64,000 nucleotides of DNA from a bacterium A37T11 (GTDB lineage: Bacteria > Bacteroidota > Bacteroidia > Sphingobacteriales > Sphingobacteriaceae): contig FOBR01000007.1 in NCBI GenBank assembly GCA_900109895.1, positions 62,001-126,000 on the forward strand, in the 5' to 3' direction. The first letter of the stretch is position 1; the number at the start of each line of letters is the position of its first letter. Shown here in pieces: positions 43,373 to 46,429 of this stretch. A program made the position numbers and the translations under genes. The notes under the pieces are model-generated. The model made no database searches and had not been told where the DNA came from. It worked only from the letters and a program-made list of their open reading frames with translations.

Positions 43373-43550
43373 ATAATTTGGTTAATATCATCCCCAGCAC
43401 TTATTGTGTTATTACATTAAGCCAAAATGTTATCTCAATATACAATTCAATTCGTGTTTTGTAGTATGGGCGTAAAATAATTAGAACGATTTTAAATTTA
43501 GGCCAATAAAATAAGGAATTCATGATTATTTTTGCTTGAATTGTTATAAA

Positions 43551-45071
43551 ATGGCAAAAGAAACTAAAAATAAGGTTGAGGAGATCGATGCTGTGCTCAT
43601 TGGAGCAGGCATCATGAGCGCTACCCTAAGCGTATTTCTTAAACAATTGAATCCGGCACTCCATATGGAAGTATTGGAACGTTTGGATGAAGTGGCTGCA
43701 GAAAGTTCTGATGCCTGGAATAATGCCGGAACAGGACATTCAGCCCTTTGCGAATTAAATTATACCCCCCAATTGCCCGACGGCAGTGTAGATATAAAAA
43801 AGGCTATTAGCATTGCCGAGCAATTTGAAATATCCAAAGAGTTTTGGGCGTACCTGGTAGAAACAGGCCTTATTAAGGACCCTACCGCCTTTATCCGCAA
43901 TATTCCGCACATGAGCTTTGTGTTTGGTGAAGATAATGTTGCCTATTTAAAGAAACGTTATGAGGCCATGAAAGTGCACCATTTATTTCGTGGGATGCAG
44001 TACACGGAAGATCATGAGCTTTTGAAAAAATGGATCCCGCTGGTCATGGAAGGCCGTAATCCCCATGAAAAGGTTGCCGCAACGCGTATGGATATTGGTA
44101 CCGATGTTAATTTTGGGGCGCTTACCCGCACGCTTTTCAGGCATTTGGTGGTGCAACCAAACTTTAAATTAAGGCGGGCACATGAAGTTAGAGACATTGA
44201 ACGTACCCAAGATGGCCGCTGGCGCATTTCCGTCAAAAACCTGACTACCGATAAAAAAAGGGAGATATTAGCCAAATTCGTATTTATTGGCGCTGGTGGC
44301 GGCTCATTACCGCTCCTTGAAAAATCAAACATTCCCGAAGGCAAAGGATTCGGTGGATTTCCGGTTAGTGGGCAGTGGCTTAAATGCACCAACCCAGCAG
44401 TTATCGCCAATCACCATGCAAAGGTTTATGGTAAAGCTGCGGTGGGTTCGCCCCCAATGTCAGTACCTCACCTTGACACCCGGGTCATCGATGGTAAGCA
44501 AGCATTGCTGTTTGGGCCATACGCTGGTTTCTCTACCAAATTTTTGAAAAATGGTTCGTGGTTGGATCTCCCAGCTTCTATTAAGGTTAATAATATCCGG
44601 CCTATGCTGGCTGCTGGCTTGGATAACATTCCCCTTACCAAATACCTCATTAATCAGGTTAGGCAGTCGCCAGATGATCGTATTGCTGCATTGAAGGAAT
44701 ACGTTCCCTTGGCCAAAAAGGAAGATTGGGAATTGGCTATTGCCGGTCAGCGCGTACAGGTAATTAAAAAGGATGAGAAGCATGGCGGCATACTCGAATT
44801 TGGTACTGAGGTGGTCACCAGTGCAGATGGGTCTATCTCGGCTTTGCTGGGTGCTTCACCCGGGGCTTCCACCTCCGTGGCCATCATGCTTAACTTGCTT
44901 AAGAAGTGTTTTCCGGAAGAAATGCGGTCAGCTGATTGGATTACCCAGCTTAAAAAGATTATTCCCTCATATGGTCAATCGTTGGCAGAGAATGAAGCCC
45001 TTGCGTTGGAAACCCGTACAAAAACGGCCAAAGCACTGCAGTTAAAGCAAAATGATCCTGTTCTCATATAA
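43551..45071 (+). CDS. mqo: Malate:quinone oxidoreductase
   Basis: Peripheral membrane FAD enzyme of 506 aa that oxidises malate to oxaloacetate and passes electrons to quinone. The frame opens at a TTG (43536), but ATG 43551 (MAKETKNKVEEIDAVLIGAG) is the sensible start. The FAD motif is DAVLIGAGIMSATLSVFL. WNNAGTGHSALCELNYTPQ, VFGEDNVAYLKKRYEAM and LLGASPGASTSVAIML are Mqo signatures. The tRNA array promoter begins 15 bases after the stop. Confidence 0.96.
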   Translation: MAKETKNKVEEIDAVLIGAGIMSATLSVFLKQLNPALHMEVLERLDEVAAESSDAWNNAGTGHSALCELNYTPQLPDGSVDIKKAISIAEQFEISKEFWAYLVETGLIKDPTAFIRNIPHMSFVFGEDNVAYLKKRYEAMKVHHLFRGMQYTEDHELLKKWIPLVMEGRNPHEKVAATRMDIGTDVNFGALTRTLFRHLVVQPNFKLRRAHEVRDIERTQDGRWRISVKNLTTDKKREILAKFVFIGAGGGSLPLLEKSNIPEGKGFGGFPVSGQWLKCTNPAVIANHHAKVYGKAAVGSPPMSVPHLDTRVIDGKQALLFGPYAGFSTKFLKNGSWLDLPASIKVNNIRPMLAAGLDNIPLTKYLINQVRQSPDDRIAALKEYVPLAKKEDWELAIAGQRVQVIKKDEKHGGILEFGTEVVTSADGSISALLGASPGASTSVAIMLNLLKKCFPEEMRSADWITQLKKIIPSYGQSLAENEALALETRTKTAKALQLKQNDPVLI

Positions 45072-45086
45072 AAGTTTTCATTCAGG

Positions 45087-45117
45087 TTTGCATAAGTACA
45101 CATAATCTGTATCTTTG
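45087..45117 (+). promoter_or_regulatory. Promoter driving the tRNA-Ala array
   Basis: TTTG (45087-45090), a 19-bp spacer and TATCTTTG (45110-45117) match the Bacteroidota -33/-7 consensus exactly. The first tRNA-like unit begins 12 bases after the -7 element, the normal place for a tRNA 5' end. The intact tRNA is 460 bases further on, and I see no other promoter between. Confidence 0.85.
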
Positions 45118-45129
45118 CAAACCTAAAAC

Positions 45130-45577
45130 GGGGGATTAGCTCATCCCGATATGCATCGGGAGGCTAGCGCGTTTGCAGTCCCGACATATGTCGGGAAAAA
45201 GGTCATCGGTTCGACTCCGATAGAAGTTCTTTAAAATAAATGGGGGATTAGCTCATCCCGATATGCATCGGGAGGCTAGCGCGTTTGCAGTCCCGACATA
45301 TGTCGGGAAAAAGGTCATCGGTTCGACTCCGATAGAAGTTCTTTAAAATAAATGGGGGATTAGCTCATCCCGATATGCATCGGGAGGCTAGCGCGTTTGC
45401 AGTCCCGACATATGTCGGGAAAAAGGTCATCGGTTCGACTCCGATAGAAGTTCTTTAAAATAAATGGGGGATTAGCTCATCCCGATATGCATCGGGAGGC
45501 TAGCGCGTTTGCAGTCCCGACATATGTCGGGAAAAAGGTCATCGGTTCGACTCCGATAGAAGTTCTTTAAAATAAAT
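45130..45577 (+). repeat. Four perfect 112-bp tandem repeats of a palindrome-interrupted tRNA-Ala
   Basis: Units start at 45130, 45242, 45354 and 45466, appear identical, and each begins with the tRNA-Ala 5' end GGGGGATTAGCTCA. In each, the D-loop GCT is replaced by TCCCGATATGCATCGGGA (45144-45161 in unit 1) and the anticodon region TGGCATGC by G plus the perfect palindrome TCCCGACATATGTCGGGA (45179-45196). The T-arm ATCGGTTCGACTCCGAT is intact. The 3' acceptor strand is replaced by AGAAGTTCTTT, so it cannot pair with GGGGGAT. D-stem base A is changed to C (AGCGCG instead of AGAGCG). The units cannot encode working tRNA. A co-transcript with the real tRNA is expected. Confidence 0.92.
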
Positions 45578-45651
45578 GGGGGATTAGCTCAGCTGGCTAG
45601 AGCGTTTGCATGGCATGCAAAAGGTCATCGGTTCGACTCCGATATTCTCCA
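45578..45651 (+). tRNA. tRNA-Ala (anticodon GGC)
   Basis: 74-nt cloverleaf. Acceptor GGGGGAT pairs with ATTCTCC (two G-U pairs), discriminator A at 45651. D-stem GCTC/GAGC, anticodon stem TTTGC/GCAAA with loop ATGGCAT (anticodon GGC), T-arm ATCGG/CCGAT with loop TTCGACT. CCA is not encoded. It is the fifth member of the 112-bp array and the only intact one. Confidence 0.95.
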
Positions 45652-45655
45652 CTCA

Positions 45656-45682
45656 AAATCCCGCAACAGCGGGATTTTTTTT
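45656..45682 (+). terminator. Terminator after tRNA-Ala
   Basis: ATCCCGC (45658-45664), loop AACA, GCGGGAT (45669-45675) and eight T (45675-45682). Strong Rho-independent terminator 4 bases after the tRNA. The nuclease ATG begins only 4 bases after the T-run. Confidence 0.93.
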
Positions 45683-45686
45683 GCTT

Positions 45687-45935
45687 ATGTATACTTGTTA
45701 TATCCTATACTCTATAAAGCTTGATAAGTATTATATCGGATATACCGTTGATATGAATGTCAGGCTGATTCAGCATAATACAGGCTTATCTAAATTTACC
45801 GCGAGGGCAAACGATTGGGCTGTTAAATTTTGTAAAATATTTCCAGATCGGGAAAGTGCGCACGCCTATGAATTGTCTCTCAAGCGCAAAAAGAGCAGAA
45901 AATATATTGAATGGTTGATAGCAACTGATAGCTGA
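45687..45935 (+). CDS. GIY-YIG nuclease, copy 1
   Basis: Protein of 82 aa consisting only of a GIY-YIG domain: CYILYS (GIY equivalent) and YYIGYT (YIG), conserved Arg in NVRLIQHN, and catalytic Glu in AYELSLKRKKSRKYIEWL. A frame extending to 45606 runs back through the tRNA and is rejected. ATG 45687 (MYTCYILYS) is the family start. No Shine-Dalgarno site is possible, because the terminator T-run lies directly upstream. Small GIY-YIG proteins of this type are abundant in Bacteroidota and have no defined function. The gene lies between two copies of the tRNA-Ala 3' end. Confidence 0.9.
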   Translation: MYTCYILYSIKLDKYYIGYTVDMNVRLIQHNTGLSKFTARANDWAVKFCKIFPDRESAHAYELSLKRKKSRKYIEWLIATDS

Positions 45936-45956
45936 TTATTCCCAATTTCACCGGAA

Positions 45957-46025
45957 GGCTAGCGCGTTTGCAAGTCCCGGCGGATGCCGGGAAAGAGGTC
46001 ATCGGTTCGACTCCGATATTCTCCA
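45957..46025 (+). pseudogene. tRNA-Ala 3' fragment with palindrome in the anticodon loop (copy 1)
   Basis: Starts GGCTAGCGCGTTTGCA, the same altered D-stem base as the 112-bp units. TCCCGGCGGATGCCGGGA (45975-45992) occupies the anticodon position. A normal T-arm and the correct acceptor strand ATTCTCC plus A follow. The 5' acceptor strand and first half of the D-arm are missing. The preceding bases TTCCCAATTTCACCGGAA look like a decayed D-loop palindrome. Confidence 0.88.
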
Positions 46026-46029
46026 CTTA

Positions 46030-46056
46030 AAATCCCGCAACAGCGGGATTTTTTTT
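46030..46056 (+). terminator. Terminator after tRNA-Ala fragment 1
   Basis: Second copy of the ATCCCGC-AACA-GCGGGAT hairpin with an eight-T run, again 4 bases before a nuclease start codon. Confidence 0.92.
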
Positions 46057-46060
46057 GCTT

Positions 46061-46336
46061 ATGTATACTTGTTATATCCTATACTCTATAAAGCTTGATA
46101 AGTATTATATCGGATATACCGTTGATATGAATGTCAGGCTGATTCAGCATAATACAGGCTTATCTAAATTTACCGCGAGGGCAAACGATTGGGCTGTTAA
46201 ATTTTGTAAAATATTTCCAGATCGGGAAAGTGCGCACGCCTATGAATTGTCTCTCAAGCGCAAAAAGAGCAGAAAATATATTGAATGGTTGATAGCAACT
46301 GATAGCGGATCATTCCCAATTTCACCGGAAGGCTAG
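46061..46336 (+). CDS. GIY-YIG nuclease, copy 2
   Basis: Identical to copy 1 over its 82 residues. A T-to-G change turns the stop codon TGA into GGA, so this copy reads on for 9 residues (GSFPISPEG) and stops at the TAG inside the tRNA fragment (GGCTAG). It therefore has 91 residues from ATG 46061 and overlaps the tRNA fragment by 6 bases. The catalytic residues are kept. Confidence 0.9.
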   Translation: MYTCYILYSIKLDKYYIGYTVDMNVRLIQHNTGLSKFTARANDWAVKFCKIFPDRESAHAYELSLKRKKSRKYIEWLIATDSGSFPISPEG

Positions 46337-46399
46337 CGCGTTTGCAAGTCCCGGCGGATGCCGGGAAAGAGGTCATCGGTTCGACTCCGATATTCTCCA
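46331..46399 (+). pseudogene. tRNA-Ala 3' fragment with palindrome (copy 2)
   Basis: Exact copy of the fragment at 45957, 374 bases downstream, with the palindrome at 46349-46366. It is the last tRNA-derived sequence of the locus. Confidence 0.88.
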
Positions 46400-46403
46400 C
46401 TTA

Positions 46404-46429
46404 AAATCCCGCAACAGCGGGATTTTTTT
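46404..46429 (+). terminator. Terminator at the end of the tRNA-Ala/GIY-YIG locus
   Basis: Third copy of the ATCCCGC-AACA-GCGGGAT hairpin, here with seven T. No nuclease gene follows. The sequence then diverges and the convergent oxidoreductase gene ends 27 bases on. Confidence 0.9.

Follow-up and report, generated by a model that had tools for sequence, protein, structure and literature searches.

Layout of the tRNA-Ala locus

The window, i.e. the whole stretch of 64,000 nt analysed here (contig FOBR01000007.1 of bacterium A37T11, GCA_900109895.1, positions 62,001-126,000 of the forward strand), contains an array of tRNA-derived repeats flanked by an mqo-like and an oxidoreductase gene. A promoter-like motif is followed by four pseudo-tRNA-Ala units, an intact tRNA-Ala(GGC), and a 374-bp tandem repeat. 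The features, in window coordinates, are as follows.

43536..45071, + strand: malate:quinone oxidoreductase-like gene (mqo), the upstream anchor (ORF; presumptive name)
45087..45117, + strand: promoter-like motif TTTG-N19-TANNTTTG, ahead of the whole array (sequence; putative function)
45130..45241, + strand: pseudo-tRNA unit 1, 5'-type, no nuclease gene (repeat and sequence reading)
45242..45353, + strand: pseudo-tRNA unit 2, identical to unit 1 (sequence identity)
45354..45465, + strand: pseudo-tRNA unit 3, identical to unit 1 (sequence identity)
45466..45577, + strand: pseudo-tRNA unit 4, identical to unit 1 (sequence identity)
45144..45161, again at 45256, 45368 and 45480, + strand: D-loop palindrome TCCCGATATGCATCGGGA (palindrome search)
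45179..45196, again at 45291, 45403 and 45515, + strand: anticodon-arm palindrome TCCCGACATATGTCGGGA (palindrome search)
45578..45652, + strand: intact tRNA-Ala(GGC) (ARAGORN; Rfam RF00005, 62 bits)
45659..45683, again at ~46033 and ~46407, + strand: intrinsic-terminator-like hairpin TCCCGCAACAGCGGGA and T run (sequence; 374-bp repeat)
45687..45935, + strand: GIY-YIG nuclease gene copy 1, 82 aa (PF01541, E 5.6e-15)
45957..46026, + strand: 3'-type pseudo-tRNA 1, with D-arm remnant GGCTAGCGCG, palindrome, T-arm and acceptor 3' strand
45975..45992, + strand: palindrome TCCCGGCGGATGCCGGGA, anticodon arm of 3'-type unit 1 (palindrome search)
46061..46336, + strand: GIY-YIG nuclease gene copy 2, 91 aa (PF01541 profile)
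46331..46400, + strand: 3'-type pseudo-tRNA 2, identical to 3'-type pseudo-tRNA 1 (sequence identity)
46349..46366, + strand: palindrome TCCCGGCGGATGCCGGGA of 3'-type unit 2 (palindrome search)

The motif TTTG-N19-TANNTTTG resembles the Bacteroidota-type promoter consensus, and it may serve as a promoter. Unit 1 consists of the 5' half of tRNA-Ala, a D-loop palindrome, an anticodon-arm palindrome, the T-arm, and filler. Letter-for-letter comparison verified that the four 112-bp units at 45130-45577 are identical, as an earlier note on this DNA had stated, and TRF reported 4.2 copies, in agreement with the tandem amplification proposed there. The units have a T-arm and no anticodon, and their acceptor is unpaired, the 3' strand AGAAGTTC being incompatible with GGGGGAT; all three points had likewise been read correctly. 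The palindromes do lie in the two hairpins, at the D-loop and the anticodon arm, but they are substitutions rather than the pure insertions that had been assumed: compared with the intact tRNA, the D-loop palindrome stands in for GCT, and the anticodon palindrome replaces the loop and most of the 3' strand of the stem while the 5' strand, TTTGC, is kept. The predicted RNA fold of unit 4 has a z score of -2.98 and is dominated by the two palindrome hairpins.

The earlier note did not include the intact tRNA-Ala(GGC) abutting the array, at 45578-45652, which is the sole tRNA called there by ARAGORN and Rfam, or the 374-bp tandem with its two GIY-YIG genes and two palindromic pseudo-tRNAs. This tandem (45622-46429) comprises 2.2 copies, and its two full copies differ at three sites. 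Each copy holds a terminator hairpin, a small GIY-YIG gene, and the 3' half of a pseudo-tRNA with TCCCGGCGGATGCCGGGA; the C-terminus of nuclease copy 2 is longer than that of copy 1 through a TGA to GGA change. Ten TCCCGN8CGGGA sites were observed in the window, against 0.03 expected. The D-arm sequence AGAGCG of the intact tRNA-Ala is AGCGCG in the upstream and downstream pseudo-tRNAs alike, and therefore the two groups probably share an origin.

Elsewhere in the same genome, a pseudo-tRNA-Leu with TCCCGATTATAATCGGGA as its anticodon arm lies between tRNA-Gly and an intact tRNA-Leu(TAA) (contig C48, L026:1700-1800). On contig C50 (L027:3099-3116), an open frame of 248 aa contains a TCCCG palindrome that is read in frame, with another, imperfect palindrome (TCTC...GAGA) beside it.

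Recurrence, arm replacement, and filled and empty sites

The window's order of palindromic pseudo-tRNA, tRNA-Ala, GIY-YIG gene and palindromic pseudo-tRNA recurs in a genome of another family (G073, L032), and the same arrangement was found in other families at tRNA-Arg, tRNA-Met, tRNA-Leu and tRNA-Ala. When the genomes of 84,980 species were scanned for a D-arm with a subsequent TCCCGN8CGGGA, at least 116 loci were detected. Nearly all of the matches listed are from Bacteroidota (Algoriphagus, Niastella, Pontibacter, Flavobacterium, Chryseobacterium, Marinirhabdus, Prolixibacter and others); a few are on MAG contigs classified as Patescibacteria, Verrucomicrobia or Kiritimatiellae. Most of these units are followed, 70-110 bp downstream, by an intact tRNA with the same identity. 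The pseudo-tRNA units on MAG contigs L142, L157, L166, L178 and L180 from the latter three groups may reflect transfer or mis-binning. The strict pattern undercounts, matching 3 of 395 genomes and missing the window itself, while a control palindrome of the same composition gave no match in those 395; prevalence is better judged from the nuclease.

Of 121 units from other genomes, each compared with the intact tRNA beside it, 107 have a palindrome that starts exactly where the anticodon arm does, and in 97 the tRNA sequence resumes at the base just past the arm, a border that is independent of the search pattern. This placement on the anticodon-arm borders upholds the earlier proposal of a process directed at RNA arms. 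In upstream (5'-type) units, the acceptor 5' strand is preserved at 93-99% per base, whereas the 3' half is gone within ~20 nt; the reverse holds for the downstream (3'-type) units, in which the 3' side is kept and the 5' end lost. The window belongs with L032 and L153 to a minor subtype that retains the anticodon stem's 5' strand, and the D-loop palindrome is an extra of the window's 5'-type units that was not seen in the other units examined. Identical inserts at random sites would have spoken against arm-directed placement; palindromes do occur elsewhere too, but their placement at tRNA arms is far beyond chance.

The 8-nt palindrome core is more similar to its own tRNA's anticodon loop than to those of other tRNAs: the longest shared string averages 3.08 nt, compared with 2.51 +/- 0.08 for other tRNAs (80 distinct pairs; 0 of 5000 shuffles as high). 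The nuclease-linked palindromes gave 2.74 versus 2.35 (3/5000) and the protein-selected subset alone a weaker result (109/5000), all of these being statistical figures that shared ancestry may inflate. Examples are the Lys core ATTTTNAT and the Ala core ATGGCAAT, both in one strain, Algoriphagus sp. A40. In G108 and G112 (L220-L235), ~50-65 dispersed TCCCGAANGCNTTCGGGA palindromes were seen, many within other intergenic repeats, and their core is the same as in the tRNA arrays of those genomes.

Comparison of sister genomes revealed the insert itself. G430 (genus g66) carries a 5'-type unit, an intact tRNA-Ala, a GIY-YIG gene and a 3'-type pseudo-tRNA, and its sisters G117 (88%) and G542 (87%) align to it on both flanks. 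Where the sisters have 18 bp, within a single tRNA-Ala with its anticodon arm, G430 has a composite insert of ~440-445 bp whose borders fall at the anticodon arm; presence and absence at an orthologous target with precise borders is the pattern of a homing element. The arm is removed in the extra copy, and the intact tRNA keeps its own. At this tRNA-Ala locus, 14 of 30 congeners are filled, with 0-3 units upstream and 0-2 downstream, and 16 are empty; the two states change 11 times on the flank tree, at least nine of them on well-supported branches, which is not fewer than with shuffled labels. The window has a counterpart in a genome of the same family, in which an mqo gene of 70% identity is followed directly by a single tRNA-Ala. 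The anticodon stem reads CTTGC in G430 and CTACG in G117 and G542, suggestive of a resistant arm brought by the insert; the association was non-significant over the 30 congeners, which include too few independent pairs.

The linked GIY-YIG nuclease and its relatives

The window protein belongs to the GIY-YIG superfamily, as indicated by the PF01541 match and the catalytic Tyr, Tyr, Arg and Glu; Y5, Y16, R26, H30 and E62 are invariant among 19 relatives. The dN/dS ratios of resolvable nuclease pairs (0.09-0.20) indicate that the nuclease is under purifying selection. The pattern-scan loci contain small GIY-YIG genes inside the arrays, many of which end in a tRNA D-arm, so that the C-terminus SAG/SVG is encoded by TCAGCTGGTTAG. 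Among the listed scan loci, the palindrome lies at one fixed offset past the stop codon in 31 of 89 nuclease genes, and the nuclease domain lies a median of 56 nt from the 3' end of the tRNA.

A protein-only search of 395 Bacteroidota genomes, meant to escape the selection bias of the pattern scan, gave matches at E <= 1e-12 in 217 of them, often in tandem arrays of 315-416 bp; the matches need not be tRNA-linked in all 217. An intact tRNA adjoins 28 of the best 30 protein-selected loci, and 26 of these 30 have the palindrome. Twenty mid-score loci have a tRNA upstream in 14 cases and a palindrome in 12; three of the remaining six have the intact tRNA on the other side, e.g. tRNA-Pro in L312, and these three are nuclease-bearing 5'-type elements. 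In total, 45 of the 50 protein-selected loci are at intact tRNA genes, compared with a rough chance expectation of a few percent (~50 tRNA genes in 4 Mb), CCCG/CGGG palindromes lie near 38, and about five have no tRNA nearby. The other small GIY-YIG gene of the window's genome (contig C31, L020) has neither a tRNA nor a palindrome nearby; it lies beside a dispersed repeat, CGTCATGTTGAGCGGAACGCAGTGTAGTCGAAACATCT, present in several copies (L020:1100-1410).

On a nuclease tree with one sequence per locus, whose resolution is limited by the shortness of the proteins, tRNA identity changes 18 times, compared with 33.9 times after shuffling (0/200). A tRNA-Lys clade spans Cyclobacteriaceae and Saprospiraceae, Algoriphagus being joined with a Saprospiraceae MAG. 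The nuclease is specialised to particular tRNAs, and its branching goes by the identity of the tRNA even where host families differ.

By profile, the nearest solved relatives of the window protein are the UPF0213/COG2827 and SLX1 GIY-YIG nucleases (1zg2, E 7e-12; SLX1, a structure-specific nuclease, E 1e-5), which are not known to be linked to tRNA genes. With SLX1 among the nearest relatives, cruciform recognition is possible by analogy.

The closest analogue is phage SegB (Brok-Volchanskaya 2008, as cited in PMC13096335). According to the part of the account available in PMC13096335, SegB is a free-standing GIY-YIG homing endonuclease of phage T4/T6 tRNA clusters that cuts inside tRNA genes and drives tandem amplification of tRNA and nuclease genes by recombination; it is a tested precedent for GIY-YIG cutting in tRNA genes, and it shares with the window element a GIY-YIG nuclease beside tRNA genes. 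A TCCCG palindrome, arm replacement, half-tRNA regeneration and nuclease-less units are not described for SegB in that part of the source (PMC13096335). SegB is phage-borne, whereas the window element is chromosomal; the window protein had no tblastn match in 50,697 phage records and no match in the plasmid records, and neither a phage location nor a phage or plasmid carrier was found.

Group I introns in tRNA anticodon loops may encode GIY-YIG endonucleases (I-TevI family) and so have both target and enzyme in common with the window element. However, the inserted copy here is a pseudogene and the intact tRNA is continuous: no group I intron was matched by Rfam in the window, and ARAGORN reported an uninterrupted tRNA-Ala. 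Integrative elements that target tRNA genes restore the tRNA 3' end, and both systems insert into a tRNA gene and regenerate an intact one; unlike these integrative elements, the window element has no tyrosine recombinase, measures 70-440 bp per unit, swaps the whole anticodon arm for a palindrome, and occurs in 5'- and 3'-restoring types. REP/RAYT palindromes and the Rickettsia palindromic elements are short palindromes, some dispersed or within genes; the window element differs from them in that its genome has no Y1 transposase and its placement is tied to anticodon arms and a GIY-YIG gene.

Interpretation of the array

We favour, with a probability of about 0.72, the reading that the locus consists of small mobile elements arrayed in the tRNA-Ala anticodon arm, their autonomous form encoding a free-standing GIY-YIG endonuclease. 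Insertion is precise to the arm, the palindrome takes the arm's place, copies lie in tandem, and sister sites are filled or empty. The insert brings a second tRNA 5' half (5'-type) or a 3' half with a terminator (3'-type), and therefore one intact tRNA remains. The nuclease would cut in or close to the anticodon arm of naive tRNA genes, and repair would copy the element into the cut site, i.e. homing. Units would pile up in tandem either because the regenerated tRNA still offers a target or because the repeats recombine. The palindrome is predicted to be, probably, the element's own end or binding site, and it may shield the copy from cutting, its core acting like a non-cleaved mimic of the cognate anticodon loop. 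The four upstream window units would be nuclease-less 5'-type derivatives carried by related nucleases, and the two 374-bp units would be nuclease-bearing 3'-type copies. The suggestion in the earlier note that the array is a by-product of a palindrome mobiliser was close, since a GIY-YIG nuclease is genetically linked to the palindromes.

Some observations weigh against this reading of mobile elements. The intact tRNA keeps its anticodon arm, and therefore insertion appears to spare the classical homing site. Palindromes also lie at non-tRNA sites, so that palindrome and nuclease may be partly separate. The roughly five in 50 nuclease loci with no tRNA nearby, the weaker loop likeness in the protein-selected subset and the non-significant resistant-arm association count on this side as well. 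The 3'-type terminators appear to resemble local host sequence, which would fit duplication too. Local tandem duplication of the tRNA by slippage or recombination, followed by decay, with palindromes arising by template switching at a hairpin and the GIY-YIG gene swept along, would also explain why the units are tandem and identical, why terminators and tRNA halves match the local host copy, and why one insert contains local-looking sequence. It is nevertheless unlikely, given the same TCCCG palindrome with the same borders at many tRNA types in many families, the tRNA position of 45/50 protein-selected nuclease loci, and the absence of matches to the control palindrome, even though the strict true pattern itself matched only 3/395 genomes. 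That the array is an assembly artefact is conceivable for a draft genome of 60 contigs with perfect repeats, but is extremely improbable, since the same architecture recurs in many independent assemblies, among them G381 and G223, both single-contig genomes, where 3-5 nuclease units lie in tandem.

A host-useful RNA, in which the pseudo-tRNAs are transcribed with the tRNA as decoys or as processing or regulatory hairpins, e.g. against anticodon nucleases, would suit the promoter-like motif ahead of the array, the stable fold, and the likeness of the core to the cognate anticodon loop. We regard it as quite unlikely: 5'-type units occur without 3' halves and 3'-type units without 5' ends, no unit is present at the locus in 16 of 30 congeners, and filled and empty states are no better conserved than shuffled labels. 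The structured decoy RNA of the earlier note is thus not borne out, the linked nuclease giving a better account of the pattern. A hairpin-recognising Y1 (RAYT/TnpA-REP) transposase acting on REP-like palindromes, with the GIY-YIG gene incidental, would agree with the dispersal of TCCCG palindromes in some genomes (66 in G108, compared with one control match) and with the Y1 genes of many such genomes. However, no PF01797 match was found in the window's genome, where RAYT is hence rejected as the mobiliser, or in palindrome-rich G100, G110, G304 and G367, and the neighbour of the palindromes in tRNA arrays is the nuclease rather than a Y1 gene, making this origin decidedly improbable. Tyrosine-integrase islands often use tRNA genes, and an integrase-like gene follows tRNA-Ala in G240 (L086); even so, it is very improbable that the array is attachment-site debris or a landing array of such islands. 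Inspection of the ORFs at 40-55 kb revealed no recombinase beside the window tRNA, the whole arm is swapped for a palindrome on both strands rather than forming a hybrid att site, the units are 70-400 bp, and in the comparison of G430 with G117 and G542 the insert is the unit itself. Attachment debris was rejected on the ORF inspection and this comparison, and the earlier idea of a landing array is likewise unsupported.

The mobile elements appear to form a widespread, previously undescribed Bacteroidota family of tiny elements built around a small nuclease; no earlier description was found in the open-access papers searched. More tentatively, and with somewhat less than even confidence, they may represent a new class of mobile element in which the nuclease reads the cruciform or hairpin of anticodon arms and swaps in a loop-imitating palindrome, with phylum-wide spread and nuclease-less passengers. 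On the favoured reading, this would be a widespread, natural and very small system, chromosomal rather than phage-borne, that invades essential tRNA genes without killing them. It offers defined filled and empty sites and a small nuclease whose predicted target is the anticodon arm; its tRNA-specialised lineages are ready material on how nucleases change target. In Bacteroidota it would also account for many pseudo-tRNAs that lack annotation and for many small genes labelled 'GIY-YIG nuclease family', and it may lead tRNA annotation and assembly astray.

Several arrangements were noted besides. In G240 (L086:1700-2450), the tyrosine-integrase-like gene lies directly 3' of a tRNA-Ala with two palindromic pseudo-tRNA units upstream. 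A second palindrome family, CCTGCC...GGCAGG-like, occurs near some TCCCG palindromes (L005, L125), and variant elements with CCCCG...CGGGG ~20 nt past the nuclease stop codon lie at tRNA-Gly and tRNA-Phe (L309, L327). In G158 (L091:1415-2450), tandem 403-bp units at tRNA-Met have their own GIY-YIG genes interrupted by TCCCGATAGCTATCGGGA.
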